This document shows, piece after piece, positions 3,092 through 22,302 of a stretch of 64,000 nt of DNA. The notes beneath the pieces are model-generated. The model had not been told where the DNA came from and searched no databases. It saw only the letters and a program-made list of their open reading frames with translations. This DNA is from Actinoplanes nipponensis (GTDB lineage: Bacteria > Actinomycetota > Actinomycetes > Mycobacteriales > Micromonosporaceae). Location: NCBI RefSeq assembly GCF_016862275.1, contig NZ_BOMQ01000089.1:1-64000 (forward strand), read 5' to 3'. The translations under genes were made by a program, and so were the position numbers. Within the stretch, counting starts at the first letter, position 1. Each line of letters begins with the position of its first letter.

Positions 3092-3118
3092 GCCGGGCCT
3101 GCGACGGGCAGGCCCGGC
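3092..3118. terminator. Intergenic hairpin between convergent genes
   Basis: Perfect 11-bp arms (GCCGGGCCTGC and GCAGGCCCGGC) around a 5-base loop, between the monooxygenase remnant and the convergent DUF3349 gene. There is no T-run. It is probably a bidirectional terminator. Confidence 0.7.
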
Positions 3119-3130
3119 CGCCGGCCGCGG

Positions 3131-3454
3131 TCAGCCGGCCTCGGGCGGATCGGCCAGCGGCCAGCCGCCGGCCGCCAGCCGCGCCGAGACCCGCACGACG
3201 TCCTCGGGGGTCGCCTGCTGCAGCATCGCCGCGGAGATCATCTGCTCGATGTCCGCGGTGCTGATCGGGTCGGCGCCGGCCAGCACGGACCGTTCCGCCA
3301 GGTCCACCGCGATCCGGCGGACCTCGTCCTCGGTGAGCTTGCGGCGCAGCACACCGAGCAGGGCCACGTAGTCCCCGCGGGGCACGCCGGCCGGATACCC
3401 GGCCCGCAGCCACTCCACGGCCCGGGTCAGGAAGTTCGCGCGGAGGTCGCCCAT
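3131..3454 (-). CDS. DUF3349 domain-containing protein
   Basis: 107 aa, all one small domain. The N-terminus FLTRAVEWLRAGYPAGVP, the middle YVALLGVLRRKLTEDEV and the C-terminal DVVRVSARLAAGGWPLADPP are typical of the actinobacterial DUF3349 family, small helical proteins with no known reaction. The start is the ATG at 3454, just after the stop of the small membrane protein remnant (3463). The order PiT transporter, small membrane protein, DUF3349 on one strand suggests a phosphate-transport-linked operon. Confidence 0.85.
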   Translation of the reverse strand: MGDLRANFLTRAVEWLRAGYPAGVPRGDYVALLGVLRRKLTEDEVRRIAVDLAERSVLAGADPISTADIEQMISAAMLQQATPEDVVRVSARLAAGGWPLADPPEAG

Positions 3455-3462
3455 GGCGGCGG

Positions 3463-3761
3463 TTACTTGTCCACGATCGCCGGGAACACGTGCGCGAAGC
3501 TCAGCGTCTTGCCGAACCCGCCGGCCACGATGTACGCCAGGCCCAGCAGGATGCCGAGCACCACGACCCCGAAGAGGACGTAGCCGGCGACCGTGCCGGC
3601 CGGCCGGGTCGTCGCCCCGGTCACGCCCGACTCGTGCACCTCGGCGTCGCGGCCCGCGCCGTAGGCCAGCGAGCGGATCCCGAGCGCGAAGCGGCGCCCA
3701 GCAGCAGGCCGGCCAGCAGGACCTTCCAGGCGCCCTCCAGGGCGAATCCCAGGTTGTGCAC
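3463..3761 (-). pseudogene. Small membrane protein of the PiT operon, frameshifted
   Basis: The GTG at 3761 sits behind an AGAGGAG site and starts MHNLGFALEGAWKVLLAGLL, a first membrane helix. At about 3697 the reading frame must change to continue with FALGIRSLAYGAGRDAEVHE and a second helix (VAGYVLFGVVVLGILLGLAY) before the TAA at 3463. Uncorrected, translation from the GTG continues out of frame. A few residues that join the two parts in relatives appear to be missing. The gene lies 13 bases after the phosphate transporter, so it is probably an accessory membrane protein of that operon. A true mutation and a sequencing or assembly error cannot be told apart here. Confidence 0.7.
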
Positions 3762-3774
3762 GGCGGGGCTCCTC

Positions 3775-5001: not shown

Positions 5002-5309
5002 ACGCAGATGGTGACGGTCCGGATCAAGGAGCAACAGAGGCAGACGGCAACACGTTCGAAATATCACCCGGGGATGCGGCCCCGCCCACTGACAGCCCGT
5101 AAGCGGAGAGTGACGCTACCGGCTGGTCACGAACATCGGCCGTACGGTCCGGGTGATAGGTCCGTTCGTCGCACGTACCGCAGCTCAGCGCATCGACGGC
5201 GATCTTCGTCCGAACATGGCACGACGCCGCACCCCCACAATCCCGCTGTCCACAGAGAGTAGTGATCAGAGGCCCGGCACGGAGGGCCCGACCACGAGCA
5301 GGAGAACCG
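5002..5309. other. Divergent intergenic region
   Basis: 308 bases between the phosphate transporter and the sigma-factor operon. It should hold promoters for both. I see short palindromic CCGTACGG at about 5139-5146 but no convincing repeated PHO-box, riboswitch or small gene. Confidence 0.4.
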
Positions 5310-5579
5310 GTGGAGCACATCAGCGGAGAGCTGCTCAGCGCAGCCCTGGCGGTCACGGGCGGACTCGGAGTCAGCGGGCTCGTCCGCACCTGGATCCGGC
5401 ACCGCACGCGGTTGCAGACGGAACGGGAGCGGTCGGTGCGCACCGCCGCCCGGGCGGCCGGGCTGGCCCGCCTCGCCCGGCGCCCGGGCACGGTACGCAT
5501 CGACGAGCGGGACACCGACGGCCACCGTGTGGTGGAGCTGCGGGGACCGTCCGCCACGACATCACGGGACGCCGCGTGA
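5310..5579 (+). CDS. Small hypothetical protein with one membrane helix
   Basis: 89 aa from the GTG at 5310, which has AGGAG 6-7 bases upstream. The N-terminus (GELLSAALAVTGGLGVSGLV) is a probable single membrane segment. The rest is basic, with an Arg-rich stretch and an acidic C-terminal part. Its TGA overlaps the start of the sigma factor, so the two are translationally coupled. It could anchor or modulate the sigma factor, but it shows no zinc-binding anti-sigma motif (HxxxCxxC). Function unknown. Confidence 0.6.
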   Translation: MEHISGELLSAALAVTGGLGVSGLVRTWIRHRTRLQTERERSVRTAARAAGLARLARRPGTVRIDERDTDGHRVVELRGPSATTSRDAA

Positions 5580-6139
5580 GCATGCCGGAACAGCCGGCGA
5601 CCGAGGCCGGTACCCTGCGCGACAGCGCCCTGGACGCGAGTTTCACCGGCTTCTTCATCCGCAACCACCTCGATGTCGAGACCTTCCTCCAGCGGCTGGA
5701 AGCGGACCGGGGCATGGTCGAGGACGTGTCCCAGGAGGCCTTCATCGCCATCCGCGCGAAGTGGCAGGACGTCCAGCACTACGACGATCCCCGGGCGTAC
5801 GTCATGGGCGCCGCCCGCAACATCCTGCGCCGGCACCAGGCCCGGCGTGGCCGCACGCCGACCCTGTTCTTCGACGACCTCAGCATGCCGGAGATCGCGG
5901 CGCCGGAGACCCCCCGGGAGGCGGCCGACCGGCTCGCCGGCTGGATCCAGCTGCTGCCGCCCCGGATGGGTGAGGTCATGAGCCTGACCCACGACGGGGT
6001 GCCGGACCGGACGATCGCCCGGCTGCTCGGGATCTCCCACAACACGGTCCGGGAGTACAAGGTGGAGGGCCGCCGCAAACTGCTGCAGCTCGCCCAGGAC
6101 GACGGCTTCGTCGTCCCGGCGGGCAGGAGGCGCAAGTGA
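5576..6139 (+). CDS. RNA polymerase sigma factor, ECF-like (sigma-70 family)
   Basis: 187 aa from the GTG at 5576 (an ATG follows at 5582). Region 2 is visible as DVSQEAFIAIRAKWQDVQHY followed by DDPRAYVMGAARNILRRH. Region 4 is LLPPRMGEVMSLTHDGVPD, then the helix-turn-helix RTIARLLGISHNTVREYKVE. There is no region 3 and no C-terminal SnoaL domain. The start overlaps the preceding small membrane protein and the stop overlaps the PAS-EAL gene, so three proteins are made from one coupled transcript. The target promoters cannot be deduced. Confidence 0.85.
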   Translation: MSMPEQPATEAGTLRDSALDASFTGFFIRNHLDVETFLQRLEADRGMVEDVSQEAFIAIRAKWQDVQHYDDPRAYVMGAARNILRRHQARRGRTPTLFFDDLSMPEIAAPETPREAADRLAGWIQLLPPRMGEVMSLTHDGVPDRTIARLLGISHNTVREYKVEGRRKLLQLAQDDGFVVPAGRRRK

Positions 6140-7986
6140 ACCTCGACGACATCATCGAACTCGCCGCGGCCCGGCAGCCGTCGGCTCTGGACCGGGCCCG
6201 TGGCCGCCGCGCCGCCGAGCGGGTGCTCCGGGAGTACGCGGAGGCGACCGCCGAGGGCCGCAACCTGCTCGGCGACCTCGACGTCGAGGACGTGCTGGCG
6301 CCCCACGTGGACGAGGCCGCCCGGATCAGGCGGACCGCGGAGTCGGCCCAGGCCGGCTGGGTGCAGTGGGACGCCGCCACGGGCGGGCTGACCTGGTCCG
6401 ACGAGATGTCCCGCCTGTTCGGCTACCCGGCGGTGGCCACCCACGTCGCCCGGGACGTGCTGCTCAACGGCATCCACCCGGACGACCGCGACCGGGTGCG
6501 GCAGGCGGTCGAGCGGGGCTGGACCCGCCGGGCCCCGACCGACGTCACGTTCCGGCTGCTGCGGGCCGACGGCACCGTCCGGTACGTGCAGTGCCTGGTG
6601 GAGCTGCTCAGCCCGGACGGCCGGAACCCGACCGGGATCATCGCCACCGGGCACGACGTCACGCGCCGCGAGCTGGACCGCCAGCAGCACACCCGGCGGC
6701 TGCGCCGGGACCGGCTCAACGGCGCGGACCACGGTCATCGCCCGGTCGCGCAGTGCCCGGTGGACCGGGAGACCTTCCTGCGGATGGTGGACCGGGCCGC
6801 CGGCAGCGGACCGGGCGCGCTGCTGGTGATCACGGTCGAGCCCGCCGGGTCGCTGCCCGCCGGGCGGGCCGACCAGGTCACCAGGACCGTCGCGGGCGTC
6901 CTGAGCCGCGTCGTGCCGGACACCGACTTCGCCGGCATGCTGTCACCGGCGGAGTTCGGCGTCTTCTTCCACGACCTCGAGACGGCGACCGCCCAGGCGA
7001 CCTCCGTGCACCACCAGCTCACGCTCACCACCGCCGGCGGCGTGCGGCTGCGGGCCCGCAGCGGCCTGGTGGCGTGCACCGGCGAGGTGCCGGTGAGCGG
7101 TCACGACCTGCTGCTGGACGCGATGTGGGCCGGGCGCGAGGGCCACCGCGGGCGGCCCTCGGCGCTGTCCGTCCTGGCCGGGCCGCGGTCCGCCCGGGCC
7201 CGGACGGACGCGGTGCGCATGGAGGTCGGCGCGGCGATCCGCTCCGGCCGGCTGCGCCTGCACGCCCAGCCGATCCTCGACCTGGCCCTGAACGAGATCA
7301 ACCGGTACGAGATCCTGCTCCGGGTGCTCGACGAGGCGGACCGGCCCCAGCCGCCGGCCACCTTCCTGGCGATGGCCGAACGGGGCGCGGACATCGTGGC
7401 CGTCGACCGGTGGGTGGTACGGCAGAGCCTCGCGGTGATCGGGTCGGGTCCGCAGACGGCGCACTACCAGATCAACCTCTCCGGCCGTACGCTGTCCGCC
7501 CCCGGCCTCGCCGACTTCGTGCTGCGCGCCCTCGACGAGCACGAGGTGGACCCGCGCATGATCACGTTCGAGGTCACCGAGTCGGCCGCGATCGGGGACC
7601 TGCCCGCCGCCGTGGTCTTCGCCCAGGCCGTCCGGCGCCGGGGGTGCGAGCTGGCGCTCGACGACTTCGGCACCGGGTACTCCTCGCTGTCGGTGCTGCG
7701 CCGGCTGCCCGTCGATCAGCTCAAGATCGACGGCAGCTTCGTCACCGGTCTCACCCGGTCCCCCTTCGACCGGATCACGGTGCAGGCCGTCGTGGGCATG
7801 TGCCAGGCGCTCGGCATCCGTACCGCCGCGGAGTCCGCGGAGGACGCCGCGACCGTCGAGCTGCTGCGGACGATCGGCGTCGACTTCGTGCAGGGATACG
7901 CGGTCGCCCGGCCGCGGCCGCTGCCCGTGCCGATCGTCGCGCCGCGGCGCGACGGGCCGGCCTTCCTCGACCGCGCCACCGGCTGA
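6136..7986 (+). CDS. PAS-EAL cyclic-di-GMP phosphodiesterase-like protein
   Basis: 616 aa, soluble. The N-terminal 60 residues are helical, residues about 64-178 are a PAS domain (WDAATGGLTWSDEMSRLFGYP, then a PAC-like IIATGHDVTRRE), and about 210-345 resemble a degenerate GGDEF domain with no GGDEF motif. About 360-605 are an EAL domain. EAL catalytic features are mostly kept: EILLR instead of EALLR, FEVTES, DDFGTGYSS, LKIDGSF, an AESAED glutamate and QGYAVARP. It may therefore hydrolyse c-di-GMP, or only bind it. The GTG start has GGAGG at 6126-6130 and overlaps the sigma-factor stop, suggesting that a PAS signal, c-di-GMP and the sigma factor act in one circuit. Confidence 0.85.
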   Translation: MNLDDIIELAAARQPSALDRARGRRAAERVLREYAEATAEGRNLLGDLDVEDVLAPHVDEAARIRRTAESAQAGWVQWDAATGGLTWSDEMSRLFGYPAVATHVARDVLLNGIHPDDRDRVRQAVERGWTRRAPTDVTFRLLRADGTVRYVQCLVELLSPDGRNPTGIIATGHDVTRRELDRQQHTRRLRRDRLNGADHGHRPVAQCPVDRETFLRMVDRAAGSGPGALLVITVEPAGSLPAGRADQVTRTVAGVLSRVVPDTDFAGMLSPAEFGVFFHDLETATAQATSVHHQLTLTTAGGVRLRARSGLVACTGEVPVSGHDLLLDAMWAGREGHRGRPSALSVLAGPRSARARTDAVRMEVGAAIRSGRLRLHAQPILDLALNEINRYEILLRVLDEADRPQPPATFLAMAERGADIVAVDRWVVRQSLAVIGSGPQTAHYQINLSGRTLSAPGLADFVLRALDEHEVDPRMITFEVTESAAIGDLPAAVVFAQAVRRRGCELALDDFGTGYSSLSVLRRLPVDQLKIDGSFVTGLTRSPFDRITVQAVVGMCQALGIRTAAESAEDAATVELLRTIGVDFVQGYAVARPRPLPVPIVAPRRDGPAFLDRATG

Positions 7987-7988
7987 CC

Positions 7989-8019
7989 GGGGCCGGTGCC
8001 CGCTGCGGGCACCGGCCCC
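7989..8019. terminator. Bidirectional hairpin terminator
   Basis: 14-bp perfect arms (GGGGCCGGTGCCCG and CGGGCACCGGCCCC) with a 3-base loop, directly between the converging stops at 7986 and 8024. Confidence 0.85.
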
Positions 8020-8023
8020 GCCC

Positions 8024-9325
8024 TCAGAACGCCTCGGCGTCGGCCGTGCGGATCGCGTCGACCAGGATGGCCAGGCCCTCGCGGGCCTCGTCGTCGGTCA
8101 GGGTCAGCGGCGGCCCCATCCGCAGCACGTTGCCGTACAGGCCGCCCTTGCCGACCAGCAGGCCGCCCTTGCGGCACTCGTCGAAGACCCGCAGGGTCGC
8201 GGCCGGGTCCGGCTCCGTCGTGCCCGGACGGACGAACTCGATGCCGATCATCAGGCCGCGGCCCCGGATCTCGCCCACGATCCCGGCGTCGCCGACCGCC
8301 GCGCGCAGGCCGTCCAGCAGGATCGTGCCGGTGCGCTTGGCGTTGGCCTGCAGGTCGTGGTCGAGCACGTAGTCCAGGACCGCGTTGCCGGCGGCGGTCG
8401 ACACCGGGTTGCCGCCGAAGGTGGAGAAGCTGGTCGCCGGGACCGCGTTGACCAGCTCGGCGCGGCCGACGACCCCGGCCAGGGCGAAGCCGTTGCCGAT
8501 GCCCTTGGCGAAGGTGATCAGGTCCGGCTGCACGCCGTGCGCCTGGTAGCCCCAGAAGTGGTCGCCGGTGCGGCCCCAGCCGGTCTGCACCTCGTCGGCG
8601 ATCAGCAGGATGCCGTGGTTGTCGAGCTCCTTCTTCAGCGCGCCGAGCAGGCCGTCGGGGGCGTGCACGAAGCCGCCCACGCCCTGGATCGGCTCGGCGA
8701 TCAGCGCCGCCACGTCGCCCGAGGTGGTGGTGGCCAGCACCTCGCGCAGGTCCTCGACCGCCGCGTCGATGTGCTCGGCGTCGGACAGGCCCTTCATCCG
8801 CCCGCGCAGGCGGTCGCCGGAGCTGAGCCAGGACACCGAGACCGGGCTCAGCGCGCTCGCCGACCAGCTGCGGTGACCGGTGATCGCCATCGCCGCGAAC
8901 GAGCGGCCGTGATAGCTGTTGCGGACGGCCAGGATCTGGTTGGACCGCCGGTGGTTGGTGGTGAACAGCAGCGCGGCCTCGTTGGCCTCGGTGCCGGAGT
9001 TGGTGAAGAACACCCGGGCGTCGGGGATGCCGGAGAGCCGGGCGATCTTCTCGGCCAGCTCGACCTGGCGGCGGATCAGGTACAGCGTGGAGCTGTGCAC
9101 GATGCCGGTGGCCAGCTGGCGTTCCACCGCCTCGCGGACCTCGGCGATGTCGTAGCCCAGCATGTTGGTCAGCACGCCGCCGAAGAAGTCCAGGTAGCTG
9201 CGGCCGTTCGCGTCGGTGACACGCCGGCCGGAGCCGCTCACCAGCTCGATCGCGTCGTCGCCGTAGTAGGTCGTCACCCAGGAGGGCAGCACGGCCTGGT
9301 GCCGGGCGAGCAGGTCATCGGTCAT
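8024..9325 (-). CDS. Class III aminotransferase, probably beta-alanine/aminoisobutyrate transaminase
   Basis: 433 aa, PLP fold-type I, class III. It shows the substrate-side GTEANEAALLF motif, the PLP aspartate in LLIADEVQTGWGRTG and the Schiff-base lysine in ITFAKGIGNGF. The closest recalled relatives are AGXT2-like transaminases. The ATG at 9325 has GGAG just upstream. It follows the MocR regulator by 17 bases in the same direction and faces the pyrimidine operon across the divergent promoter. In that context it likely converts beta-alanine (or 3-aminoisobutyrate) to malonate (or methylmalonate) semialdehyde for the dehydrogenase at 13196. The exact acceptor (pyruvate or 2-oxoglutarate) is not readable. 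Confidence 0.85.
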   Translation of the reverse strand: MTDDLLARHQAVLPSWVTTYYGDDAIELVSGSGRRVTDANGRSYLDFFGGVLTNMLGYDIAEVREAVERQLATGIVHSSTLYLIRRQVELAEKIARLSGIPDARVFFTNSGTEANEAALLFTTNHRRSNQILAVRNSYHGRSFAAMAITGHRSWSASALSPVSVSWLSSGDRLRGRMKGLSDAEHIDAAVEDLREVLATTTSGDVAALIAEPIQGVGGFVHAPDGLLGALKKELDNHGILLIADEVQTGWGRTGDHFWGYQAHGVQPDLITFAKGIGNGFALAGVVGRAELVNAVPATSFSTFGGNPVSTAAGNAVLDYVLDHDLQANAKRTGTILLDGLRAAVGDAGIVGEIRGRGLMIGIEFVRPGTTEPDPAATLRVFDECRKGGLLVGKGGLYGNVLRMGPPLTLTDDEAREGLAILVDAIRTADAEAF

Positions 9326-9342
9326 GGGGTTCTCCAAAGGGG

Positions 9343-10779
9343 TCAGCGCCAGCCCCGCGGGTGCGGGCGGGTACGGGAGCCGCTGCCGCGCGCGGTCGCG
9401 CCGGCGGCGGAAGCCAGGACGGCGGCCAGCGCGTCGAAGTCGTCGCGGACCAGGCCGGCGGTGACCCGGACGTGGTCGGCGCCGAGCGGGGTGACCTCGA
9501 AGGGCGCGCCGGGGGCGACGGCGATGCCGTGGGCGGCCAGCGCCAGCATGGCCATCTGCTGGTCCTCGACGGTCAGCCACAGGTTGATGCCGTCGGCGGC
9601 GGTCGCGGTGGCGCCGTGGGCCGCCAGCGCGGACAGCAGGGCGGCGCGGCGGTGCGCGTACGTCTCCCGGGCGCGGGCCACCTGGGCCACCGCGGCGTCG
9701 TCGGTCAGCAGGTCGAGCAGCACGGCCTGCAGCAGGCGGCTGGACCAGCCGGGCCCGAGCAGCCGCCGGTCGTTGATCGCGGTCACCAGCGGCGCCGGAC
9801 CGGCCAGGGCGGCCAGGCGCAGATCGGGGCCGTGGCTCTTGGAGAAGCCGGCCACGTGCACGGTGCGGTCCGGCAGCCGGGTGCCCAGGCTGACCGGCGG
9901 CGCGGTGGCGACGTCGCCGGCGTGGTCGTCCTCGACGACGGTCACCTCGGGGTAGGCGGCCAGCGCGTCGGCGAGCTCGCCGGCCCGGCGCGCGGTCATG
10001 CTGACCCCGGTCGGGTTGTGCGCCCGGGGCTGCAGGTAGACCGCGACCGGGTCGTACGTGCGCAGCGCCTCCCCCAGCGCGTCCGGGCACATGCCGTGGT
10101 CGTCCATGGGCACCCCGACCACGGTCGCGCCCACCGTCTCGAGCAGGTCGAGCACGGGCGGGAAGGCCGGGTTCTCCACCAGCACGTGGTCGCCGAACCG
10201 GACCAGGGTGGCGGTCACCCGGTCCAGCGCGTCGAGGGCGCCGTCGACCACGGTGAGGTGGTCGGGCAGGTACGGCCAGCGCTGCCGCAGCACCCGTTCC
10301 AGCGGGGGCAGCACGGCCACGTCCAGGTAGCTGGTGGTGAGCCGGGCGTCGCCGATCCGGCGGAGCGAGTCGGTGACGCCGGGCAGCAGGTCGTGGTCGG
10401 GCACGCCCGTGGAGAAGTCCCGGGCCATGCCCGTCTGCAGGCCGCTGAGCTGCGCGTACCGCAGGCGCCGCCGGGGCAGCACCGGGGCGGCGACGAACGA
10501 GCCGGACCGCCCGCGGGTCTGGATCGCCCCGGCCCGGCTCAGGCTGCGCCAGGCCTCGCTGACCGTGGTCGGGCTGACCCCGAGCCCGCGGGCGACGTCG
10601 CGCACGGTGGGCAGCCGCGCGCCGACCGGCAGGTCACCGGCGGTGACGAGCCGGCTGACGGCCGCGGCGATCCCCCGGGCGCTGCGGTCCTCCACCGCGC
10701 CCGTGATGAGCCCAAGCAAATTGACGACTCCGAAACATTTGGTAACAGCTGAGTAATTGTCCGCTCTGGGTTGTGTCAT
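9343..10779 (-). CDS. MocR/PdxR-type GntR regulator with aminotransferase-like domain
   Basis: 478 aa. Residues about 35-105 are a GntR winged helix (LPTVRDVARGLGVSPTTVSE). The rest is a fold-type I aminotransferase-like effector domain with the NPTG motif, an EDDH aspartate and a PLP-lysine region, GFSKSHGPDLRLA. Such proteins sense PLP or a PLP-amine adduct. The gene is divergent from the pyrimidine operon, with 125 bases between starts, and is followed by the aminotransferase, so it is the probable local regulator. A GATGAC direct repeat in the shared promoter is a candidate site. Confidence 0.88.
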   Translation of the reverse strand: MTQPRADNYSAVTKCFGVVNLLGLITGAVEDRSARGIAAAVSRLVTAGDLPVGARLPTVRDVARGLGVSPTTVSEAWRSLSRAGAIQTRGRSGSFVAAPVLPRRRLRYAQLSGLQTGMARDFSTGVPDHDLLPGVTDSLRRIGDARLTTSYLDVAVLPPLERVLRQRWPYLPDHLTVVDGALDALDRVTATLVRFGDHVLVENPAFPPVLDLLETVGATVVGVPMDDHGMCPDALGEALRTYDPVAVYLQPRAHNPTGVSMTARRAGELADALAAYPEVTVVEDDHAGDVATAPPVSLGTRLPDRTVHVAGFSKSHGPDLRLAALAGPAPLVTAINDRRLLGPGWSSRLLQAVLLDLLTDDAAVAQVARARETYAHRRAALLSALAAHGATATAADGINLWLTVEDQQMAMLALAAHGIAVAPGAPFEVTPLGADHVRVTAGLVRDDFDALAAVLASAAGATARGSGSRTRPHPRGWR

Positions 10780-10813
10780 TAGTGTGCTCCATCATCAGCC
10801 CCTGGTGTCAAGC

Positions 10814-10833
10814 GATGACCTGGGGACGATGAC
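10814..10833. promoter_or_regulatory. Candidate MocR operator (direct repeat) in the divergent promoter
   Basis: GATGAC occurs at 10814-10819 and 10828-10833, 14 bases apart. Just upstream is an imperfect inverted repeat (CCCCTGGTGTCA and TGACCTGGGG). MocR proteins commonly bind repeats near divergent promoters. Assignment to the adjacent regulator is inference. Confidence 0.4.
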
Positions 10834-10904
10834 AGCGGGTGGACGGACGATCACAATCGTGGGGTGACCCACGCCACCACTGAGCTCAGAGAGGGGCCAC
10901 CGCG

Positions 10905-11744
10905 ATGAGCAACCTCATCCGAGCCGCCCTCGTCCAGACCAACTGGACGGGCGACAAGGAATCGATGATCAAGGCGCACGAGGACTACGCTCGCGACGCC
11001 GCCGCCCAGGGCGCCAAGGTGATCTGCTTCCAGGAGCTGTTCTACGGCCCCTACTTCTGCCAGGTCCAGGACAAGGCGTTCTACTCCTACGCCGAGTCCG
11101 TACCGGGCCCCACCACCGAACGTTTCCAGGCCCTGGCCGCCGAGCTCGGCCTGGTGATGGTCCTGCCGATGTACGAGCAGGAGCAGCCCGGCGTCCTCTA
11201 CAACACCGCGGCCGTCGTGGACGCCGACGGCACGTACCTCGGCAAGTACCGCAAGCACCACATCCCGCAGGTCAACGGCTTCTGGGAGAAGTTCTACTTC
11301 CGCCCCGGCAACCTGGGCTACCCGGTGTTCGACACCGCGGTCGGCAAGGTCGGCGTCTACATCTGCTACGACCGGCACTTCCCCGAGGGCTGGCGGGCGC
11401 TGGGCCTGAACGGCGCGCAGATCGTCTTCAACCCGTCGGCGACCAGCCGCGGCCTGTCGTCGTACCTGTGGCAGCTGGAGCAGCCGGCCAGCGCGGTCGC
11501 CAACGAGTACTTCATCGGCGCGATCAACCGCACCGGCGTCGAGGAGCTCGGCGACAACGACTTCTACGGCCAGTCCTACTTCGTCGACCCGGAGGGCAAG
11601 TTCGTCGGCGCGGTCGGCGACACCCACAACCCGGAGCTGATCGTCCGCGACCTGGACCTGGACCTGCTCGCCACCGTCCGCGACCGCTGGCAGTTCTACC
11701 GCGACCGCCGCCCGGACAGCTACGACGGGCTGGTGACCCCGTGA
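10905..11744 (+). CDS. Beta-ureidopropionase (N-carbamoyl-beta-alanine amidohydrolase), nitrilase superfamily
   Basis: 279 aa. The Glu-Lys-Cys catalytic triad of the nitrilase superfamily is visible: Glu in VICFQELFYGPYF, Lys in YRKHHIPQ and Cys in YICYDRHFPEGWR. The family hydrolyses N-carbamoyl amino acids to the amino acid, CO2 and ammonia. Position directly before dihydropyrimidinase makes N-carbamoyl-beta-alanine the natural substrate, though D-carbamoyl amino acids from hydantoins are possible. The ATG at 10905 follows GAGAGGGG. The stop overlaps the GTG of the next gene. Confidence 0.88.
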   Translation: MSNLIRAALVQTNWTGDKESMIKAHEDYARDAAAQGAKVICFQELFYGPYFCQVQDKAFYSYAESVPGPTTERFQALAAELGLVMVLPMYEQEQPGVLYNTAAVVDADGTYLGKYRKHHIPQVNGFWEKFYFRPGNLGYPVFDTAVGKVGVYICYDRHFPEGWRALGLNGAQIVFNPSATSRGLSSYLWQLEQPASAVANEYFIGAINRTGVEELGDNDFYGQSYFVDPEGKFVGAVGDTHNPELIVRDLDLDLLATVRDRWQFYRDRRPDSYDGLVTP

Positions 11745-13186
11745 CCCCGTCCAACCGCCCCGCCGCCGCCCTTGACCGGACTGAAGGCAGCTACCTGATC
11801 AAGGGCGGCACGGTCGTCGGGCCGACCGGGGCCTCCCCCGCTGACGTGCTGGTCGACGGCGAGACCATCGCCGCGATCTTCGCGCCCGGCCGCGGCCCCG
11901 GCGATGTCGAGACCGTCGACGCCACCGGCAAGTACGTCATCCCGGGCGCGGTCGACGCGCACACCCACATGGAGCTGCCGTTCGGCGGCACGCACGCCAG
12001 CGACACCTTCGACACCGGCACCCGGGCGGCGGCGTTCGGCGGGGTCACCACGATCATCGACTTCGCCGTCCAGCGCTACGGCGAGGTGGTCCAGGACGGG
12101 CTGGCCGCCTGGCACGCCAAGGCCGAGGGCAACTGCCACATCGACTACGGCTTCCACATGATCCTGGGCGGCGTCACCGACGAGTCGCTCAAGGCCATGG
12201 ACCAGCTCGTCACCGACGAGGGCATCTCCAGCTTCAAGCTGTTCATGGCCTACCCGGGGGTGTTCTACAGCGACGACGGGCAGATCCTGCGCGCGATGCA
12301 GAAGGCCCGCGACAACGGCGCCATGATCATGATGCACGCGGAGAACGGCCCGGCCATCGACGTGCTGGTCAAGCAGGCCCTGGAACGCGGCGAGACGGAC
12401 CCGGTGCACCACGGCCTGACCCGCCCGCAGGAGCTGGAGGCCGAGGCCACCAGCCGGGCCATCTGGCTGGCCAGCGTGGCCGCGGACTGCCCGCTCTACA
12501 TCGTGCACCTGTCCGCCTCCAAAGCCCTCGAACAGGTCGCGGCGGCCCGGGACCTGGGCCGCAACGTGTTCGCCGAGACCTGCCCGCAGTACCTGTACCT
12601 GACGCTGGAGGACCAGCTGGGCGCGCCGGGCTTCGAGGGCGCCAAGTGGGTCTGCTCGACCCCGCTGCGCAGCAAGCACGAGAGCCACCGGGCCGACCTG
12701 TGGCGCGGGCTGCGCACCAACGACCTGGCCGTGGTCTCCACCGACCACTGCCCGTTCTGCATGAAGGACCAGAAGGAGCTGGGCCTGGGCGACTTCTCCA
12801 AGATTCCGAACGGCATCGGCAGCGTCGAGCACCGCGTCGACCTGCTCTACCAGGGCGTGGTCGACGGCAAGCTGTCGCTGGCCCGCTGGGTGGAGACGAT
12901 CGCCACCACCCCCGCCCGGATGTTCGGCCTGTACCCGCGCAAGGGCGTCATCGCCCCCGGCTCGGACGCCGACATCGTGCTCTACGACCCGAACGGGCGG
13001 ACCCGGATCAGCGCGGCCACCCATCACATGAACATGGACCACTCGGCCTGGGAGGGCTGGGAGATCGACGGCCGGGTCGACACCGTCATCTCCCGCGGCA
13101 CGGTCGTGGTCCGCGGCGACCAATACACCGGACGCAAGGGCCACGGCCGCTACGTCCGCCGGGGACTCTCGGACTACCTGGTCTAG
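11741..13186 (+). CDS. hydA: Dihydropyrimidinase / hydantoinase
   Basis: 481 aa cyclic amidohydrolase that opens dihydrouracil, dihydrothymine or hydantoin rings. Metal-site motifs are intact: DAHTHMELP (two His), FKLFMAYPG with the lysine that is carboxylated to bridge the two metals, MMHAEN, IVHLSAS and STDHCPF (Asp). The GTG at 11741 overlaps the ureidopropionase stop, giving translational coupling. The C-terminal VVVRGDQYTGRKGHGRYVRR is typical of bacterial dihydropyrimidinases. Confidence 0.92.
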   Translation: MTPSNRPAAALDRTEGSYLIKGGTVVGPTGASPADVLVDGETIAAIFAPGRGPGDVETVDATGKYVIPGAVDAHTHMELPFGGTHASDTFDTGTRAAAFGGVTTIIDFAVQRYGEVVQDGLAAWHAKAEGNCHIDYGFHMILGGVTDESLKAMDQLVTDEGISSFKLFMAYPGVFYSDDGQILRAMQKARDNGAMIMMHAENGPAIDVLVKQALERGETDPVHHGLTRPQELEAEATSRAIWLASVAADCPLYIVHLSASKALEQVAAARDLGRNVFAETCPQYLYLTLEDQLGAPGFEGAKWVCSTPLRSKHESHRADLWRGLRTNDLAVVSTDHCPFCMKDQKELGLGDFSKIPNGIGSVEHRVDLLYQGVVDGKLSLARWVETIATTPARMFGLYPRKGVIAPGSDADIVLYDPNGRTRISAATHHMNMDHSAWEGWEIDGRVDTVISRGTVVVRGDQYTGRKGHGRYVRRGLSDYLV

Positions 13187-13195: not shown

Positions 13196-14676
<1,481 letters not shown>

Positions 14677-14680
<4 letters not shown>

Positions 14681-15681
14681 CGGCCATGGACATCGGCGTC
14701 GTCCTGCAGTGCGACCCGCCCGCCATGGAGGTGGTGGAGTGGGCGCGCAAGGCCGAGGAGCTGGGTTACAGCCACGTGTGGACGTTCGACTCGCACGTGC
14801 TGTGGCAGGAGCCGTTCGTCATCTACAGCAAGATCCTCAGCGACACCGAGCGGGTGATCGTCGGTCCGATGGTCACCAACCCGGGCACCCGGGACTGGAC
14901 CGTCATCGCCGCCCAGTTCGCCACCCTCAACGAGATGTACGGCAACCGCACGATCTGCGGCATCGGCCGGGGCGACTCGGCCCTGCGGGTGCTGGGGCTG
15001 CCGCCGAACACCCTCGGCGAGCTGCGCGAGAGCATCGGCGTCGTCAAGGGCCTGGCCAGCGGCGAGAAGGTGACGGTACGCGGGCAGGAGCTGCAGTTCG
15101 CGTGGGCGCCCGACAGCCGGCTGGACGTGTGGGTGGCGGCGTACGGGCCCAAGGCCCTGGCCCTGACCGGCGAGGTGGGTGACGGCTACATCCTGCAGCT
15201 CGCCGACCCGGACATCGCGGCCTGGATGATCGCGGCGGTGCGCCGCGCCGCCGCCCGCGCGGGCCGCGACCCGGACGCCATCAAGTTCTGCGTCGCGGCC
15301 CCGGCCTACGTCGGCGACGACCTCGCGCACCAGCGCGACCAGACCCGGTGGTTCGGCGGCATGGTCGGCAACCACGTCGCGGACATCGTCGCCCGCTACG
15401 GCGCCGACGGCGCCGTGCCGCAGGTGCTGACCGACTACATCAAGGACCGGCAGGGCTACGACTACGCCGAGCACGGCCGGGCCGGCAACAGCCACACCGC
15501 GTTCGTGCCGGACGAGGTGGTGGACCGGTTCTGCATCCTCGGCCCGGTCGGGAACCACCTCGAGCGGCTCGAGCGGCTGCGGGCCCTGGGGGTCGACCAG
15601 TTCGCGGTCTACCTGCAGCACGACGGCAAAGAGGCGACGCTGCGGGCCTACGGCGAGAAGATCATTCCGGTGGTCCGGTGA
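14677..15681 (+). CDS. Luciferase-like (LLM class) F420-type oxidoreductase of pyrimidine loci
   Basis: 334 aa (GTG at 14677 overlapping the previous stop, or ATG at 14686). It is a TIM-barrel flavoprotein-like enzyme of the bacterial luciferase superfamily: MDIGVVLQCDPPAMEVVEWA, a conserved SHVWTFDSHVLW segment and a CGIGRGDSALRVLGLPP loop. I recall a subfamily (TIGR03842) found next to dihydropyrimidinase in actinobacteria, with F420 as predicted cofactor. The reaction is not established in what I can see. As the only redox gene between importer and dihydropyrimidinase, it is a candidate for the ring-reduction step. Confidence 0.8.
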
Positions 15682-16520
15682 GGCGTGTCCTGAGCGCCCT
15701 GATCGGGCTGGTGGTCCTGGTTGCCCTCTGGGAGGGCTACAAGGCCGTCGGCAACCCGGACGGGACGGTGCTCCTCGGCGTCCGCATCCTGCCCCGGGCC
15801 GACGACCTGTCCATGCCGCACGTGTGGGACATGCTGACCCGGCTGGGCCGCCCGGAGCTCACCGGCGGCCGGCCGGTCTGGCGGGTGGTGCTCAGCGCCG
15901 GCCTGTTCACGCTGGGCATCACCACGCTCGGCTTCGCGGCCGGCGCGGTGATCGGCTTCCTGCTGGCGGTGGCCATGCAGCGGTTCCGGCTCGTCGAGCG
16001 GGGGCTGCTGCCGTACGTGATCCTGTCGCAGACCGTGCCGCTGGTCGCGCTGGCCCCGCTGATCGCCGGGTGGGGCGGCACGATCTGGCCGGAGTGGATG
16101 ACGGTCGCGGTCATCGCCGCGTACCTGGCTTTCTTCCCGGTCGCCGTCGGCATGCTGCGCGGGCTGCAGTCGCCGCAGGCGGCCGGGGTCGAGCTGATGC
16201 GCAGCTACGCCGCCGGGTGGTGGCGCACCCTGGTGAAGCTGCGCCTGCCGGCGTCGCTGCCGTACCTGTTCCCGGCCCTGCGGCTGGCCGGCGCGGCCGC
16301 CGTCGTGGGCGCGGTGGTCGGTGAGATCTCCACCGGCACGCGCGGCGGCATCGGCCGGCTCATCATCGAGTACTCCCGGGAGGCGACCAGCGATCCCGCC
16401 AAGGTCTACACCGCCATGCTCGGCGCGGCCCTGCTCGGGCTCGTCGTCGCCGCCCTGGTCAGCCTGCTGGAACTGCCGCTGATGCGGCACCGACGACGTG
16501 TCTCGGTGGTGACGATGTGA
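15678..16520 (+). CDS. ABC importer permease (nitrate/sulfonate/pyrimidine type)
   Basis: 280 aa from a GTG that overlaps the oxidoreductase stop. About six hydrophobic segments and the permease EAA-like loop (MRSYAAGWWRTLVKLRLPASLP) place it in the SsuC/TauC/ThiX-like permease family. It is one of two permeases that flank the ATPase, implying a heterodimeric membrane pore. Its stop overlaps the ATPase start. Confidence 0.85.
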   Translation: MRRVLSALIGLVVLVALWEGYKAVGNPDGTVLLGVRILPRADDLSMPHVWDMLTRLGRPELTGGRPVWRVVLSAGLFTLGITTLGFAAGAVIGFLLAVAMQRFRLVERGLLPYVILSQTVPLVALAPLIAGWGGTIWPEWMTVAVIAAYLAFFPVAVGMLRGLQSPQAAGVELMRSYAAGWWRTLVKLRLPASLPYLFPALRLAGAAAVVGAVVGEISTGTRGGIGRLIIEYSREATSDPAKVYTAMLGAALLGLVVAALVSLLELPLMRHRRRVSVVTM

Positions 16521-17299
16521 CGGCCGTGGCCCTCACCAACGTGTCCAAGGTGTTCAACCCGGGCCGGCCCGACGAGGTCGTCGCCCTGTCCGGCATCGAC
16601 CTGACGATCGGCCACGGCCAGTTCGTCTCGCTGATCGGCCCGTCCGGGTGCGGCAAGAGCACCCTGCTGCGGCTGATCGCCGACCTGATCCCGGCGACGG
16701 CCGGGACGGTCGAGGTGGCCGGCAAGCCGGCCTCCCGGGCCCGGCTGGACCAGGAGTACGGCATCGCGTTCCAGCAGGCCGGCCTCTTCGAGTGGCGCAC
16801 CGTGCAGCGCAACGTGGAGCTGCCGCTGGAGCTGCGCGGCGCCTCCCGGGCCGAGCGCCGGGCCCGGGCCGCCGAGATGCTGGCGCTGGTCGGGCTGGCC
16901 GACTTCGCCGGGCACTACCCGGCCCAGCTCTCCGGCGGCATGCAGCAGCGGGTCGCGATCGCCCGGGCGCTGGCGGTGCACCCGCCGCTGCTGCTGATGG
17001 ACGAGCCGTTCGGCGCGCTCGACGAGATGACCCGGGAACGGCTCCAGGCCGAGCTGCTGGCCATCTGCGCCAAGACCGGCACCAGCACGGTCTTCGTCAC
17101 GCACTCCATCTCGGAGGCGGTCTTCCTGTCGAACCGGGTCGTGGTGATGTCACCCCGTCCGGGCCGGATCACCGCGACCGTCGACGTCGACCTGCCCGCC
17201 CGCGACGACGCCGCCCGGCAGTCCCCGGCGTACTTCGACGCGATCACCGAGGTCCGCCGCGCCCTGCGGGGCGACGCCGCGGCGGCGGCCACCTCATGA
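16517..17299 (+). CDS. ABC importer ATP-binding protein
   Basis: 260 aa. Walker A is GPSGCGKST, the Q-loop is in IAFQQAGLFEW, the signature is LSGGMQQRVAIARAL, Walker B is LLLMDEPFGALD and the H-loop is VFVTHSISEA. These match the SsuB/TauB/ThiZ group that pairs with NMT1-like binding proteins. Overlapping start and stop codons couple it to both permeases. Confidence 0.93.
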   Translation: MTAVALTNVSKVFNPGRPDEVVALSGIDLTIGHGQFVSLIGPSGCGKSTLLRLIADLIPATAGTVEVAGKPASRARLDQEYGIAFQQAGLFEWRTVQRNVELPLELRGASRAERRARAAEMLALVGLADFAGHYPAQLSGGMQQRVAIARALAVHPPLLLMDEPFGALDEMTRERLQAELLAICAKTGTSTVFVTHSISEAVFLSNRVVVMSPRPGRITATVDVDLPARDDAARQSPAYFDAITEVRRALRGDAAAAATS

Positions 17300-18060
17300 G
17301 GTCGCTGCTGCGGGTCGCCCCTCCCGTGCTGGTCGGCATCGCCGCCCTGATCGGGTGGGAGCTGCTGGTCTCGCTGGGCCGGATCGCGCCGTTCATCCTG
17401 CCGGCGCCGTCGGCGATCGGGCACGAGCTGGTCGCGCAGCGCGGCAACGTCTGGGACGCGGCGCTGGCCAGCGGCCTCAACGCGTTCATCGGCCTGGCCT
17501 GGGGCACGGCCGCGGGGGTGCTGGCGGCCATGGCGGCGAGCCGCTTCCGGCTGCTGTCCGAGGTGTCGATCCCGCTGGCCGCGGTGGCCAACGCGCTGCC
17601 GATCATCGCGCTCGCCCCGATCCTCAACAACATGTTCGAGTCGACCTCCAGCGTGCCGCGCCGGCTGGTCGCCGGGATCATCGTGTTCTTCCCGGTCTTC
17701 GTCAACACCCTGCGCGGTCTGCGCGAGGTCGACCCCACCCACCGGGAGCTGATGACCAGCTACGCGGCGGGCGGCTGGACGTTCACCCGGCTGGTCCGGC
17801 TGCCCGGCGCGCTGCCGTTCGTGTTCACCGGCCTGCGCCAGGCGTCGTCGCTGGCCGTCATCGCCGCGGTCGTCGCCGAGTACTTCGGCGGGCTGCAGAC
17901 CGGGCTCGGCTCGCGGATCACTTCCGCCGCCGCGTTCACCGCCTACCCCCGGGCCTGGGCCTTCGTGGTCGGCGCCTGCCTGCTCGGACTGCTCTTCTAC
18001 CTGGCCACGCTCCTGCTGGAGCGGATCGTCATGCCCTGGAAAACCCGACTGCTCTCTTGA
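17296..18060 (+). CDS. ABC importer permease, second subunit
   Basis: 254 aa, starting ATG at 17296 inside an ATGA overlap with the ATPase. It has about six membrane segments and the coupling loop MTSYAAGGWTFTRLVRLPGA. It belongs to the same family as the permease at 15678 but is clearly diverged from it, so the two probably form a heterodimer. Confidence 0.88.
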   Translation: MRSLLRVAPPVLVGIAALIGWELLVSLGRIAPFILPAPSAIGHELVAQRGNVWDAALASGLNAFIGLAWGTAAGVLAAMAASRFRLLSEVSIPLAAVANALPIIALAPILNNMFESTSSVPRRLVAGIIVFFPVFVNTLRGLREVDPTHRELMTSYAAGGWTFTRLVRLPGALPFVFTGLRQASSLAVIAAVVAEYFGGLQTGLGSRITSAAAFTAYPRAWAFVVGACLLGLLFYLATLLLERIVMPWKTRLLS

Positions 18061-18071: not shown

Positions 18072-19208
18072 GTGAAGAAGCGCCTTCTCCCCGCCGCCGT
18101 TCTCGCCACCGCCCTGGCCCTCACCGGCTGCGGCACGGCGGACACCCCTTCGACACCGACCCCGGGCGCCAGCGGCGCCCTGACCCCGATCAAGCTCCAG
18201 CTGCAGTGGTTCTACCAGGCCCAGTTCGCCGGCTACATCGCCGCGGTGGACCAGGGTTTCTACCGGGAACAGGGCCTCGACGTGCAGCTGCTCGAGGGCG
18301 GCGTGGACATCGTGCCGCAGACCGTGCTGGCGCAGGGCAAGGCCGACTACGCGGTGGCCTGGGTGCCCAAGGCGCTGGCGTCCCGCGAGCAGGGCGCCGG
18401 CATCACCGACGTGGGGCAGATCTTCGCGCGGTCCGGCACGTACCAGGTGGCCTGGAAGGACAGCGGCATCACCAAGGCGGCCGACCTCAAGGGCAAGAAG
18501 GTCGGCAACTGGGGCTTCGGCAACGAGTTCGAGCTGTTCGCCGGCATGACCAAGGCCGGGCTGGACCCGGGTAAGGACGTCACCCTGGTGCAGCAGCAGT
18601 TCGACATGCAGGCGCTGCTCAAGAAGGAGATCGACGCCGCCCAGGCGATGAGCTACAACGAGTACGCCCAGCTGCTGGAGGCCAAGAACCCGGCGACGGG
18701 CGCGCTCTACCAGCCCGGGGACTTCAGCGTCATCGACTGGAAGACCGAGGGCTCGTCGATGCTGCAGGACGCGGTGTGGGCCAACACCGACAAGCTCAAC
18801 GACCCGGCGTACCAGCAGCAGACGGTGAAGTTCCTGGCCGGCACGATCAAGGGCTGGGCGTACTGCCGGGACAACGCGCAGGCCTGCCGTGACCTGGTGG
18901 TGGCCAAGGGCTCGAAGCTGGGCAAGAGCCACCAGCTCTGGCAGATGAACGAGGTCAACAAGCTCATCTGGCCGGCGGCGGGCGGCATCGGCGTGATCAA
19001 CGACGCCGACTGGAAGCAGACGGTGGAGCTGTCGCTGACCACGAAGAACCAGACCGGCGACACCGTGCTGACCAAGCAGCCGGAGGGCCTGGCCTTCACC
19101 AACGACTACATCCAGCAGGCGCTGACCCGGGCCAAGGCGGCCGGCGTGGATGTGAACGGCACGTCGTTCCAGCCGCAGACGGTGACGCTGACCGCCGGCG
19201 GCGCCTAG
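18072..19208 (+). CDS. ABC importer substrate-binding lipoprotein, NMT1/THI5-like
   Basis: 378 aa. A lipoprotein signal ends in ALTGC, with the lipidated Cys near residue 20. The mature protein begins LQLQWFYQAQFAGYIAA and continues DQGFYREQGLDVQLLEGG, the hallmark of NMT1/THI5-like periplasmic binding proteins that bind pyrimidine-type ligands (thiamine precursors, riboflavin, hydroxymethylpyrimidine). This agrees with a pyrimidine or hydantoin import role for the operon. The GTG at 18072 is preceded by GAGGAG. It is the last gene before a strong hairpin at 19258. Confidence 0.9.
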   Translation: MKKRLLPAAVLATALALTGCGTADTPSTPTPGASGALTPIKLQLQWFYQAQFAGYIAAVDQGFYREQGLDVQLLEGGVDIVPQTVLAQGKADYAVAWVPKALASREQGAGITDVGQIFARSGTYQVAWKDSGITKAADLKGKKVGNWGFGNEFELFAGMTKAGLDPGKDVTLVQQQFDMQALLKKEIDAAQAMSYNEYAQLLEAKNPATGALYQPGDFSVIDWKTEGSSMLQDAVWANTDKLNDPAYQQQTVKFLAGTIKGWAYCRDNAQACRDLVVAKGSKLGKSHQLWQMNEVNKLIWPAAGGIGVINDADWKQTVELSLTTKNQTGDTVLTKQPEGLAFTNDYIQQALTRAKAAGVDVNGTSFQPQTVTLTAGGA

Positions 19209-20214: not shown

Positions 20215-22302
20215 TCAGCCGGCGGACGGGGTCAGCACGACCTCGTCCGAGCCGGATTGCGGCGGGGCGCCGGAGTCCGTGTACGACGCCACGAACACCG
20301 CGGTCAGGCCCTCGGCGCCGGTGTGCCCGCCGTCGAGGAACGTGGGGATGGAGCCGGCGCAGCCGGTGGCCGTGGACAGCGGATGACCGTGCTGGGCGTG
20401 GCCCAGGATGTAGGTCACCGTCACCCGGGAGCAGTCGACCGGCTGGTCGTCGACCACCGTGACCGTGTAGTTCACCGTGTCACCGAACTCGAACGGCTGA
20501 TCCGGGCCGGGCGTGGTGGTCAGGGTGACCTGCGGGGCCGCCGTACCGACCGGGAGCAGCAGCTCCGCCGAGGCCCAGCGGCCGGTCGGGTCGGTCACCT
20601 TCAGCACGGGCCGGTAGTTGCCGTTCTCGGTGAACGTGTGGACCGCGTTCGGCTGCCGGGAGTCGACGATCCCGTCGGCGTCGAAGTCCCAGGCGTAGCG
20701 CAGGCTGTCGCCGTCGGGGTCGGTGGTGCCGGCGCTGGAGAACGTCACGGTCAGCGGCGCCTCGCCGAGCGTCGGCGTGGCCGTGATCTTCGGGATCGGG
20801 GTGCGGTTGCCGCGCACGTAGTCGATGCGCGCCAGTTGCGCCTCCGGGTTCTCGGAGAAGTAGCCGTCGCCGTACTCGAGCACGTAGAGCGCGCCGTCCG
20901 GACCGAACTCCAGGTCCATCGGGTTGTCGAAGACGATCGACGGCAGCACCTGGCGGATCGCGGCGACCTCGTTCGCCGGGCCCAGGGTGAACTCCTGCAC
21001 GTAGTCGCGGGTCCACTCGTAGAACAGCGGCTTGCCGTCGTAGTACCGCGGCCACTTGGTCGCGGACCGGTTCCCGGCGTCGAAGTGGTACGCCGGCCCG
21101 CCCATCGGGCCGATGCCGCCGGTGCCCAGTTCGGGGAACTCGGCCGAGGCGCCGTAGGAGTAGACGACCTCCGCCTTCTCCACCGGCGGCAGCTTGCGCC
21201 GGCCGGTGTTGTGCGGCGACTCGTTCACCGGCGCGGCGCAGTTGAACGGCGCGCCGGAGGTCTTGGTGGCGAAGTCGTAGTCGACGTACGGCAGGTCGGG
21301 CGTCACGCAGTACGGCCAGCCGTAGTTGGCGGGCTTGTCGATGGCCATCCAGCGCCCGTGCCCGGCCGGTCCGCGCGCGGGGTTGGGGCTGTTCGCGTCG
21401 GGTGAGTAGTCGGCCATGTACACGACGCCGGTCTTCTCGTCGACGGCGAAGCGGAACGGGTTGCGCAGGCCCATCGCATAGATCTCCGGGCGGGTGTACG
21501 CCGTGCCCGGCTTGAAGAGGTTGCCCTTCGGGATGGTGTAGCTGCCGTTGGCCCCCACCTTGATCCGCAGCAGCTTGCCCCGCAGGTCGTTGGTGTTGGC
21601 CGCGGTGCGCTGGGCGTCGAAGGCCGGGTTGCGCCCGGCCCGCTCGTCCAGCGGCGCGTAGCCGTCGGAGGCGAACGGGTTGGTGTCGTCGCCGGTGGAC
21701 AGGTACAGGTTGCCCCGGCCGTCGAAGTCGATCTTGCCGCCGACGTGGCAGCAGATGCCCCGGTCGGTGCCGACCTCGAGGATCTTCTGCTCGGTGGCCA
21801 GGGCCAGGGTGTTGCCGGTGAGCTTGAAACGCGACAGCCGCATGACGCCCTTGAACCGGGCGAAGTCGGCGGCGGTGCCCGTCTCGGGCGCGTCACCCTC
21901 GTTGACCGCGGGCGTCGCCGGGTCGTCGGCGGGCGTGTTCAGCGGCGGCGAGTAGTAGATGTAGACCCACTTGTTCCGCGCGAAATCCGGGTCGATCGCG
22001 ACGCCCTGCACACCCTCCTCGTCGTGCTGGTAGACGGGGATCTTCGCGGCCAGGACGTTGCGCCCGCTCCTCGGGTCGTTGATCCGGACCTCGCCGGTGC
22101 GGGCGGTGTGCAGCACCCGCCGGTCGGGCAGCACGGCCAGCGCGATCGGCTCGCCCGGGAAGTCGTCGAGGGTCACCTTCTGGAAATGGGCGTCGGCCGG
22201 TGGCTCGGCCGGGGCGGCTGCGGTGGCCGCGCCGGCCGGGACGGTCAGGGCGGTCGCGACGAGAGCCAGCACGGGTACGGCGTGCAGCAGGGTCTTCCTC
22301 AT
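20215..22302 (-). CDS. Secreted PQQ-type sugar dehydrogenase with PKD domain
   Basis: 695 aa. A signal peptide (residues 1-29) ends near ATAAA. Residues about 40-485 are a glucose/sorbosone dehydrogenase beta-propeller (DFPGEPIALAVLPDRRVLHT, GICCHVGGKIDFDGRGNLYL, YGWPYCVTPD, GPDGALYVLEYGDGYF). Residues about 500-590 are a PKD-type domain (FSSAGTTDPDGDSLRYAWDF), followed by another extracellular beta-domain. The family oxidises aldoses with PQQ, but cofactor use is not proven by sequence. It follows the Tat-exported isomerase by 13 bases, forming a two-gene extracellular sugar operon. Confidence 0.85.
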   Translation of the reverse strand: MRKTLLHAVPVLALVATALTVPAGAATAAAPAEPPADAHFQKVTLDDFPGEPIALAVLPDRRVLHTARTGEVRINDPRSGRNVLAAKIPVYQHDEEGVQGVAIDPDFARNKWVYIYYSPPLNTPADDPATPAVNEGDAPETGTAADFARFKGVMRLSRFKLTGNTLALATEQKILEVGTDRGICCHVGGKIDFDGRGNLYLSTGDDTNPFASDGYAPLDERAGRNPAFDAQRTAANTNDLRGKLLRIKVGANGSYTIPKGNLFKPGTAYTRPEIYAMGLRNPFRFAVDEKTGVVYMADYSPDANSPNPARGPAGHGRWMAIDKPANYGWPYCVTPDLPYVDYDFATKTSGAPFNCAAPVNESPHNTGRRKLPPVEKAEVVYSYGASAEFPELGTGGIGPMGGPAYHFDAGNRSATKWPRYYDGKPLFYEWTRDYVQEFTLGPANEVAAIRQVLPSIVFDNPMDLEFGPDGALYVLEYGDGYFSENPEAQLARIDYVRGNRTPIPKITATPTLGEAPLTVTFSSAGTTDPDGDSLRYAWDFDADGIVDSRQPNAVHTFTENGNYRPVLKVTDPTGRWASAELLLPVGTAAPQVTLTTTPGPDQPFEFGDTVNYTVTVVDDQPVDCSRVTVTYILGHAQHGHPLSTATGCAGSIPTFLDGGHTGAEGLTAVFVASYTDSGAPPQSGSDEVVLTPSAG

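Follow-up and report, generated by a model that had tools for sequence, protein, structure and literature searches.

Which enzyme takes the first step of pyrimidine degradation in Actinoplanes nipponensis? Reductive pyrimidine catabolism starts with a PydA-type iron-sulphur (Fe-S) flavoenzyme. PydA/PreTA has the PF01180 fold, carries flavin mononucleotide (FMN) and Fe-S centres, and receives electrons from NAD(P)H or ferredoxin. The question is raised by a stretch of 64,000 nucleotides of this organism (contig NZ_BOMQ01000089.1, positions 1 to 64,000; the window hereafter), in which an operon with a dihydropyrimidinase gene (HydA) contains no PydA/PreA-type gene. The same operon contains an open frame at 14677-15681 (+) for a protein of the luciferase-like LLM superfamily, called LLM below, which an earlier note on the window had put forward as the replacement. 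From gene content, linkage, genome-level pattern and predicted fold, we infer which reaction LLM catalyses and on what substrate, which way the electrons flow and what its neighbours do: LLM is probably an F420H2-dependent uracil/thymine reductase that replaces PydA.

According to this proposal, LLM would take a hydride from F420H2 and pass it to the C5=C6 bond of uracil or thymine, giving dihydrouracil or dihydrothymine. HydA and an amidase would open the ring and cut it down to beta-alanine or 3-aminoisobutyrate, a transaminase would take off the nitrogen, and a CoA-acylating (methyl)malonate-semialdehyde dehydrogenase (MMSDH) would yield acetyl-CoA or propionyl-CoA. The route would thus be like the reductive Pyd pathway in HydA, amidase, transaminase and semialdehyde dehydrogenase, and unlike it in that the first enzyme is replaced. 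LLM resembles PydA/PreTA (model NF006183) in its proposed reaction and its place upstream of dihydropyrimidinase, and LLM and PreA alternate among genomes with HydA. However, the two share no domain, and the proposed cofactor of LLM is F420. A ferredoxin-dependent PydA is described in the accessible part of PMC7332683.

Family and predicted fold of LLM

Matches to PF00296 (216.7 bits, the sole Pfam domain detected) and to TIGR03842 (576.9 bits against a curated cut-off of 295.45) confirm the reading of the frame as an LLM-superfamily protein and make it a member of TIGR03842, a family of the "hypothetical equivalog" type in NCBIfam. The NCBIfam scan matched 24 families at E<=0.001. As NF006183 is absent from these matches and the protein lacks a PF01180 domain, LLM does not belong to PydA/PreA. 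Names among its best 120 matches are mostly Actinoplanes and near relatives, and a scan of viral_contigs gave no relatives. The residues W222, F223, N229, H230, Y258, D259, Y260 and H263 are invariant and are the TIGR03842 family's own.

The solved structures closest to LLM in predicted fold are F420 enzymes (Mer and others), well above RutA; FMN enzymes also appear among the solved relatives. Mer (TIGR03555), which carries out F420-dependent hydride transfer, is the nearest solved protein in both sequence and fold. However, LLM scores 104.9 bits on TIGR03555 against a cut-off of 348.7, and 128.6 on NF002619 against 276. Moreover, Glu6 of Mer (mutated in 8qq8), which we take to be catalytic, is V6 in LLM, and all 44 aligned TIGR03842 members have V, C or T there. 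LLM as Mer was set aside on these two grounds, the scores and the loss of Glu6.

RutA, a uracil monooxygenase, opens the ring oxidatively with FMN. LLM shares its fold but none of the 24 NCBIfam matches is a RutA model, and a RutA-type oxygenase was rejected as a candidate. A wider version of this idea holds that LLM is a RutA-like oxygenase or an accessory protein, while an unlinked reductase acts or the operon starts from imported dihydropyrimidines or hydantoins. We consider it very improbable: besides the fold ranking, the product of an oxygenase would not be a substrate of HydA, the F420-reducing enzymes encoded in the clusters described below imply reductive use, and the exclusion between LLM and PreA would need a separate reason.

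First-step enzymes and F420 genes elsewhere in the genome

The A. nipponensis genome (8.95 Mb, completeness given as 100) has one PF01180 (DHO_dh) match above cut-off, the quinone-dependent biosynthetic PyrD (NF003652, 461.5 bits, cut-off 267), and one further weak match, a nitronate monooxygenase (PF03060, 247.3 bits). The PreA model NF006183 gave no match genome-wide at E<=1e-60, while the same search was positive in the controls, E. coli and Deinobacterium chartae. The lack of a PydA-type gene in the operon, claimed in the earlier note, therefore stands and extends to the rest of the genome in these searches; the pydA-like gene elsewhere that the note had named as a finding against its proposal did not turn up beyond PyrD and the nitronate monooxygenase.

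Seventeen other LLM-type places are listed in this genome, and seven of them were scanned with NCBIfam. RutA was not among the families shown for these seven at E<=1e-40, and no genome-wide RutA search was made. One of the seven is an F420-dependent glucose-6-phosphate dehydrogenase (FGD; 473.9 bits against a cut-off of 420). CofH is found above cut-off within an 840-residue open frame, as expected for a fused FbiC. With CofH and FGD both above their cut-offs, F420 can probably be made and reduced in this organism, and FGD would be the source of F420H2.

Distribution of LLM, HydA and PreA

Among 296 genomes of the actinobacterial phylum (HydA at E<=1e-90), LLM is present in 62, HydA in 91 and PreA in 2. 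HydA accompanies LLM in 61 of 62 genomes, versus 30 of the 234 without LLM (Fisher p 3.8e-39). Counted by genus, a HydA genome occurs in 37/37 genera with LLM versus 22/156 other genera (p 1.3e-24). No LLM genome carries PreA (0/62), which is not telling since PreA is too rare in this phylum: 90 of the 91 HydA genomes lack it, and a single one (G196) of the 30 HydA genomes without LLM has it.

The alternation with PreA comes from a second sample, 293 genomes from the order to which Marinomonas aquiplantarum belongs (PreA at E<=1e-80, HydA at E<=1e-110), with LLM in 15, PreA in 23 and HydA in 35. HydA is present in 14 of the 15 LLM genomes and PreA in none. The 35 HydA genomes divide into 14 with LLM, 16 with PreA, 5 with neither and 0 with both (p 9.7e-6). 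HydA lies about 10 kb from LLM in M. aquiplantarum.

A Leisingera-led set comprised the best 80 of at least 594 loci by match to a Leisingera protein alignment, and is not a random sample. Fifty genomes of these loci were searched for PreA, CofH and HydA; three are shared with the LLM genomes of the Marinomonas order. HydA was found in 49/50 (above cut-off in 48). The survey suggested in the earlier note, of LLM with hydA where pydA is absent, was thus borne out for HydA in all these samples and for PreA in the first two; the PreA genes of the Leisingera-led set are weighed below.

F420 genes around LLM

We compared 141 LLM neighbourhoods, the 80 Leisingera-led loci and 61 others (60 from actinobacterial genomes, one from a Streptomyces plasmid), using reference proteins of the window, Leisingera, Paracoccus and E. 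coli as queries. A tree was built with the window and 135 of these loci; L088, L129, L175, L177, L185 and L188 were dropped for length, score or stops. In 35 of the 80 Leisingera-led loci, CofG, CofH, CofD, CofC, CofE and NpdG (NADPH:F420 reductase) are all encoded on LLM's strand, and NpdG lies within 400 nt upstream of LLM in 46 of the 80. The examined stretch of the 35 full loci also holds HydA in 14, an amidase in 20 and an importer in 16. CofH was found in 42 of the 50 genomes.

Plasmids of Leisingera and Paracoccus alcaliphilus carry cofG-cofH-cofD-cofC-cofE-npdG followed directly by LLM. On the Leisingera plasmid this unit is divergent from pntAB, an aminotransferase, a Zn-hydrolase, hydA and an NCS1 nucleobase symporter. 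Such a module could produce NADPH, hand its electrons to F420, reduce the pyrimidine and break down the resulting compound. P. denitrificans DSM 413 (L093) has the same F420 operon and LLM beside a Zn-hydrolase, HydA and NCS1, and a search for PreA at E<=1e-40 was negative in its genome. According to the accessible part of PMC8498797, P. denitrificans and Oligotropha contain traces of F420. In P. alcaliphilus (L048, 16405-25956) and Poseidonocella (L126), the F420-LLM operon adjoins isochorismatase-family, short-chain dehydrogenase/reductase (SDR) and "isochorismate synthase" genes. One contig labelled Nocardioides marinus (L089) carries a Leisingera-like F420 operon with an LLM 98% identical, and is probably assembly contamination.

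A different arrangement is found in a Devosia-type group (L134 at 1302-11002, L135-L139, L143, L147, L163). CofH was not found in two Devosia and one Pelagibacterium genome, and near LLM all nine loci of the group have genes for a predicted F420-0 importer and one resembling CofE, with an FGD homologue in eight of nine. At L134, from Devosia, three proteins exceed their cut-offs, namely the binding protein of the importer (427.3, cut-off 392.4), a permease (445.9, cut-off 437.35) and FGD (506, cut-off 420), and the adjacent ATPase scores below its own (330.9, cut-off 372.4). These loci are likely to be F420 salvage units.

Because F420-synthesis or import genes surround LLM outside actinobacteria, F420 is favoured over FMN as its cofactor. 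Since NpdG and FGD reduce F420, LLM would be expected to use up the F420H2 by reducing its substrate. The F420H2 would be supplied by NpdG in proteobacteria, in some of them together with transhydrogenase, and in Devosia by glucose-6-phosphate dehydrogenase acting on F420 made from an imported precursor. HydA coupling, PreA alternation and F420 genes, all evidence of genomic context, support the idea of a replacement first-step reductase with which the earlier note had started.

The Chloroflexi bring in another possibility, namely that LLM is, at least there, an FMN-dependent or dual-cofactor pyrimidine reductase at the same pathway step. CofH is lacking in 3/3 Chloroflexi and in one cyanobacterial metagenome-assembled genome (MAG) tested, yet the 12 Chloroflexi-type loci (L149-L155, L157-L161) keep HydA, MMSDH and CN-hydrolase by LLM (10 loci each), and FMN enzymes are among the fold relatives. 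We nevertheless regard it as unlikely, in view of the full F420 set with NpdG in 35/80 loci, the pairing of LLM with F420-0 importer genes and mostly also an FGD homologue in the Devosia-type group, and the F420 enzymes as nearest folds.

Precedents, counter-evidence and scope

A precedent for the proposed chemistry comes from antibiotic biosynthesis. According to the accessible part of PMC10714638, reduction of the uracil C5-C6 bond in uridyl-peptide antibiotics depends on SSGG-03002 and NpsU, putative F420/FMN oxidoreductases; the evidence is genetic, from gene disruption and nuclear magnetic resonance, in dihydro-mureidomycin and napsamycin biosynthesis, and 42 homologues are reported. They resemble LLM as putative F420/FMN oxidoreductases reducing this bond, and are set beside TIGR03842 by description only; they differ in acting on a uridyl-peptide or its precursor in antibiotic biosynthesis, not in catabolism. 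In Chloroflexota uric-acid clusters, a luciferase-family F420 "yanthine reductase" for the purine ring has been proposed (PMC12507026, accessible part). It is likewise a luciferase-family F420 enzyme that would reduce a nucleobase ring in place of a dihydroorotate dehydrogenase-like enzyme, but it belongs to a purine pathway, was proposed from gene context and is likened to LLM by description only. As far as the accessible part of PMC4617892 tells, some genes for reductive uracil degradation in M. smegmatis are still to be identified. We found no catabolic F420 uracil reductase in the literature on F420 or LLM with uracil reduction or dihydropyrimidinase, a coverage that takes in few subscription papers and leaves absence unproved.

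Several observations weigh against LLM as an F420H2-dependent uracil/thymine reductase. The enzyme assays reported for the mureidomycin precedent gave no product (PMC10714638, accessible part). In the surveys, genomes within a sample are related and the p values are therefore too small. In actinobacteria, 29 of the 91 HydA genomes have neither LLM nor PreA, and HydA alone is no proof of uracil reduction; HydA must have other uses, or another uracil reductase exists. As to linkage, HydA is outside the examined stretch in 40 of the 80 Leisingera-led loci and 13 of the 61 others (in some where the contig or stretch ends), and in 21 of the 35 loci with the full F420 set. In P. alcaliphilus and Poseidonocella, isochorismatase and SDR genes, not hydA, are nearest to LLM. 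The two Devosia genomes and the Pelagibacterium genome have HydA, but not beside LLM: in Devosia it is on a different contig or unlinked. As to the cofactor, 8 of the 50 Leisingera-led genomes lack CofH, among them the Chloroflexi and the cyanobacterial MAG, whose neighbourhoods show no F420-0 importer either, so that F420 use there is unproved.

Finally, 4 of the 50 Leisingera-led genomes (two Leisingera, Limimaricola and Aquamicrobium) also carry PreA above cut-off, and 5 more have PreA matches below it (142 to 219 bits), of which the 219-bit match in Motiliproteus spans positions 1-402 of 422 and could be a distant PreA. HydA is matched twice in each of the four, and also in 11 of the 46 others. 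Three of the four have one HydA no more than 3 kb from PreA, and three have another at most 8 kb from the cofH gene in the F420 cluster. The four genomes look like cases of two parallel pathways, one per first enzyme.

In spite of these points, the best explanation of the genomic evidence would be a new one: a known step of a known pathway would be taken by an enzyme that is unrelated to the usual one and uses another cofactor. F420 might then also have a function in marine proteobacteria. Taken more broadly, we lean slightly towards an F420H2-dependent LLM as a second independent solution to catabolic uracil/thymine reduction, found in Actinomycetota, in Alpha- and Gammaproteobacteria and, to judge from gene context, also in Chloroflexi. 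In this broader proposal, marine proteobacteria (Leisingera, Paracoccus, Marinomonas, Halomonas, Marinobacter, Vibrio) would keep the F420 operon chiefly for LLM, and Devosia would import an F420 precursor for it. LLM is thus a candidate for the missing first step in HydA genomes without PreA, where TIGR03842 is present. If the proposal is true, P. denitrificans would depend on F420 when uracil or thymine is its source of nitrogen.

The operon in the window and the substrate of LLM

The genes of the window that bear on the pathway are the following.

8024..9325, minus strand: class III aminotransferase, proposed beta-alanine/3-aminoisobutyrate transaminase (NCBIfam omega-transaminase-type matches, all those shown below cut-offs)
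9343..10779, minus strand: MocR-like transcriptional regulator, divergent (best NF012025, PtsJ-like MocR, 250.5 bits, below the cut-off of 573)
10905..11744, plus strand: CN-hydrolase, proposed beta-ureidopropionase (TIGR03381, 244.5 bits, below the cut-off of 410.25)
11741..13186, plus strand: HydA, dihydropyrimidinase (TIGR02033, 548.5 bits, cut-off 393.25)
13196..14680, plus strand: MMSDH (TIGR01722, 678.2 bits, cut-off 448.5)
14677..15681, plus strand: LLM, proposed F420H2-dependent uracil/thymine reductase (TIGR03842, PF00296; likely start ATG 14686)
15678..16520, plus strand: ATP-binding cassette (ABC) transporter permease (PF00528; GTGA overlap with the LLM stop)
16517..17299, plus strand: ABC transporter ATPase (PF00005)
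17296..18060, plus strand: ABC transporter permease (PF00528)
18072..19208, plus strand: NMT1/THI5-like substrate-binding protein, proposed pyrimidine binder (PF09084, 111.3 bits)

From the CN-hydrolase to the binding protein, whose end is at 19208, these genes form one run on the plus strand. The TIGR02033 match puts a dihydropyrimidinase into this operon, as in the reductive pyrimidine degradation pathway, and the best solved relatives of HydA are D-hydantoinase/dihydropyrimidinase. The nearest solved relatives of the CN-hydrolase are N-carbamoylputrescine amidohydrolase and beta-ureidopropionase, and weak relatives of the binding protein in the PDB include THI5 and formylaminopyrimidine-binding protein. 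The earlier note had placed every step and an importer in the operon. Dihydropyrimidinase, amidase, MMSDH and ABC importer are indeed there, but the transaminase, on the minus strand behind the divergent MocR-like regulator, lies outside it; homologues of this regulator adjoin several related operons. Nor is LLM the only redox protein, as had been stated: MMSDH is also a redox enzyme, so LLM is the only one without an assigned step. Of the overlapping codons said to embed LLM, the downstream GTGA overlap with the permease at 15678 is read directly in the sequence. The GTG at 14677 does overlap the MMSDH stop codon. However, many LLM relatives have 331 aa, which fits a start at ATG 14686; this is probably the true start, and the upstream overlap is therefore uncertain.

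PreA/PreT is absent from all the neighbourhoods of LLM homologues (0/141, tblastn E<=1e-8). Of the 61 other loci, 48 have HydA, 56 an amidase, 28 NCS1, 18 parts of an ABC importer, 43 an aminotransferase and 16 MMSDH; the corresponding numbers in the 80 Leisingera-led loci are 40, 44, 18, 18, 20 and 19, with transhydrogenase in 9. The roles of Zn-hydrolase and aminotransferase at these loci are inferred from position. With neighbours that change from locus to locus (a CN- or a Zn-hydrolase, an NCS1 transporter or an ABC importer), LLM appears to go with the pathway rather than with a single inherited operon.

With MMSDH at some loci and nucleobase or THI5-like importers, uracil or thymine would fit better as substrate than a hydantoin or barbiturate. 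A hydantoin-only operon was set aside as a candidate, because it leaves the alternation of LLM and PreA unexplained. A related alternative keeps LLM as an F420H2-dependent reductase feeding HydA, with another cyclic imide or nucleobase as substrate, such as a modified pyrimidine or a purine-derived ring. The purine-ring reduction proposed in Chloroflexota (PMC12507026, accessible part) and the hydantoinases among the relatives of HydA speak for it, but MMSDH and transaminase by many loci fit the dihydrouracil/dihydrothymine route, and LLM and PreA alternate in genomes with HydA; we find this alternative quite improbable.

On either side of the cluster, the window contains other genes. Upstream, 6136-7986 (+) matches PAS and EAL-type cyclic di-GMP phosphodiesterase domains, and downstream, 20215-22302 (-) shows a weak match to the glucose/sorbosone pyrroloquinoline quinone-dependent dehydrogenase family.
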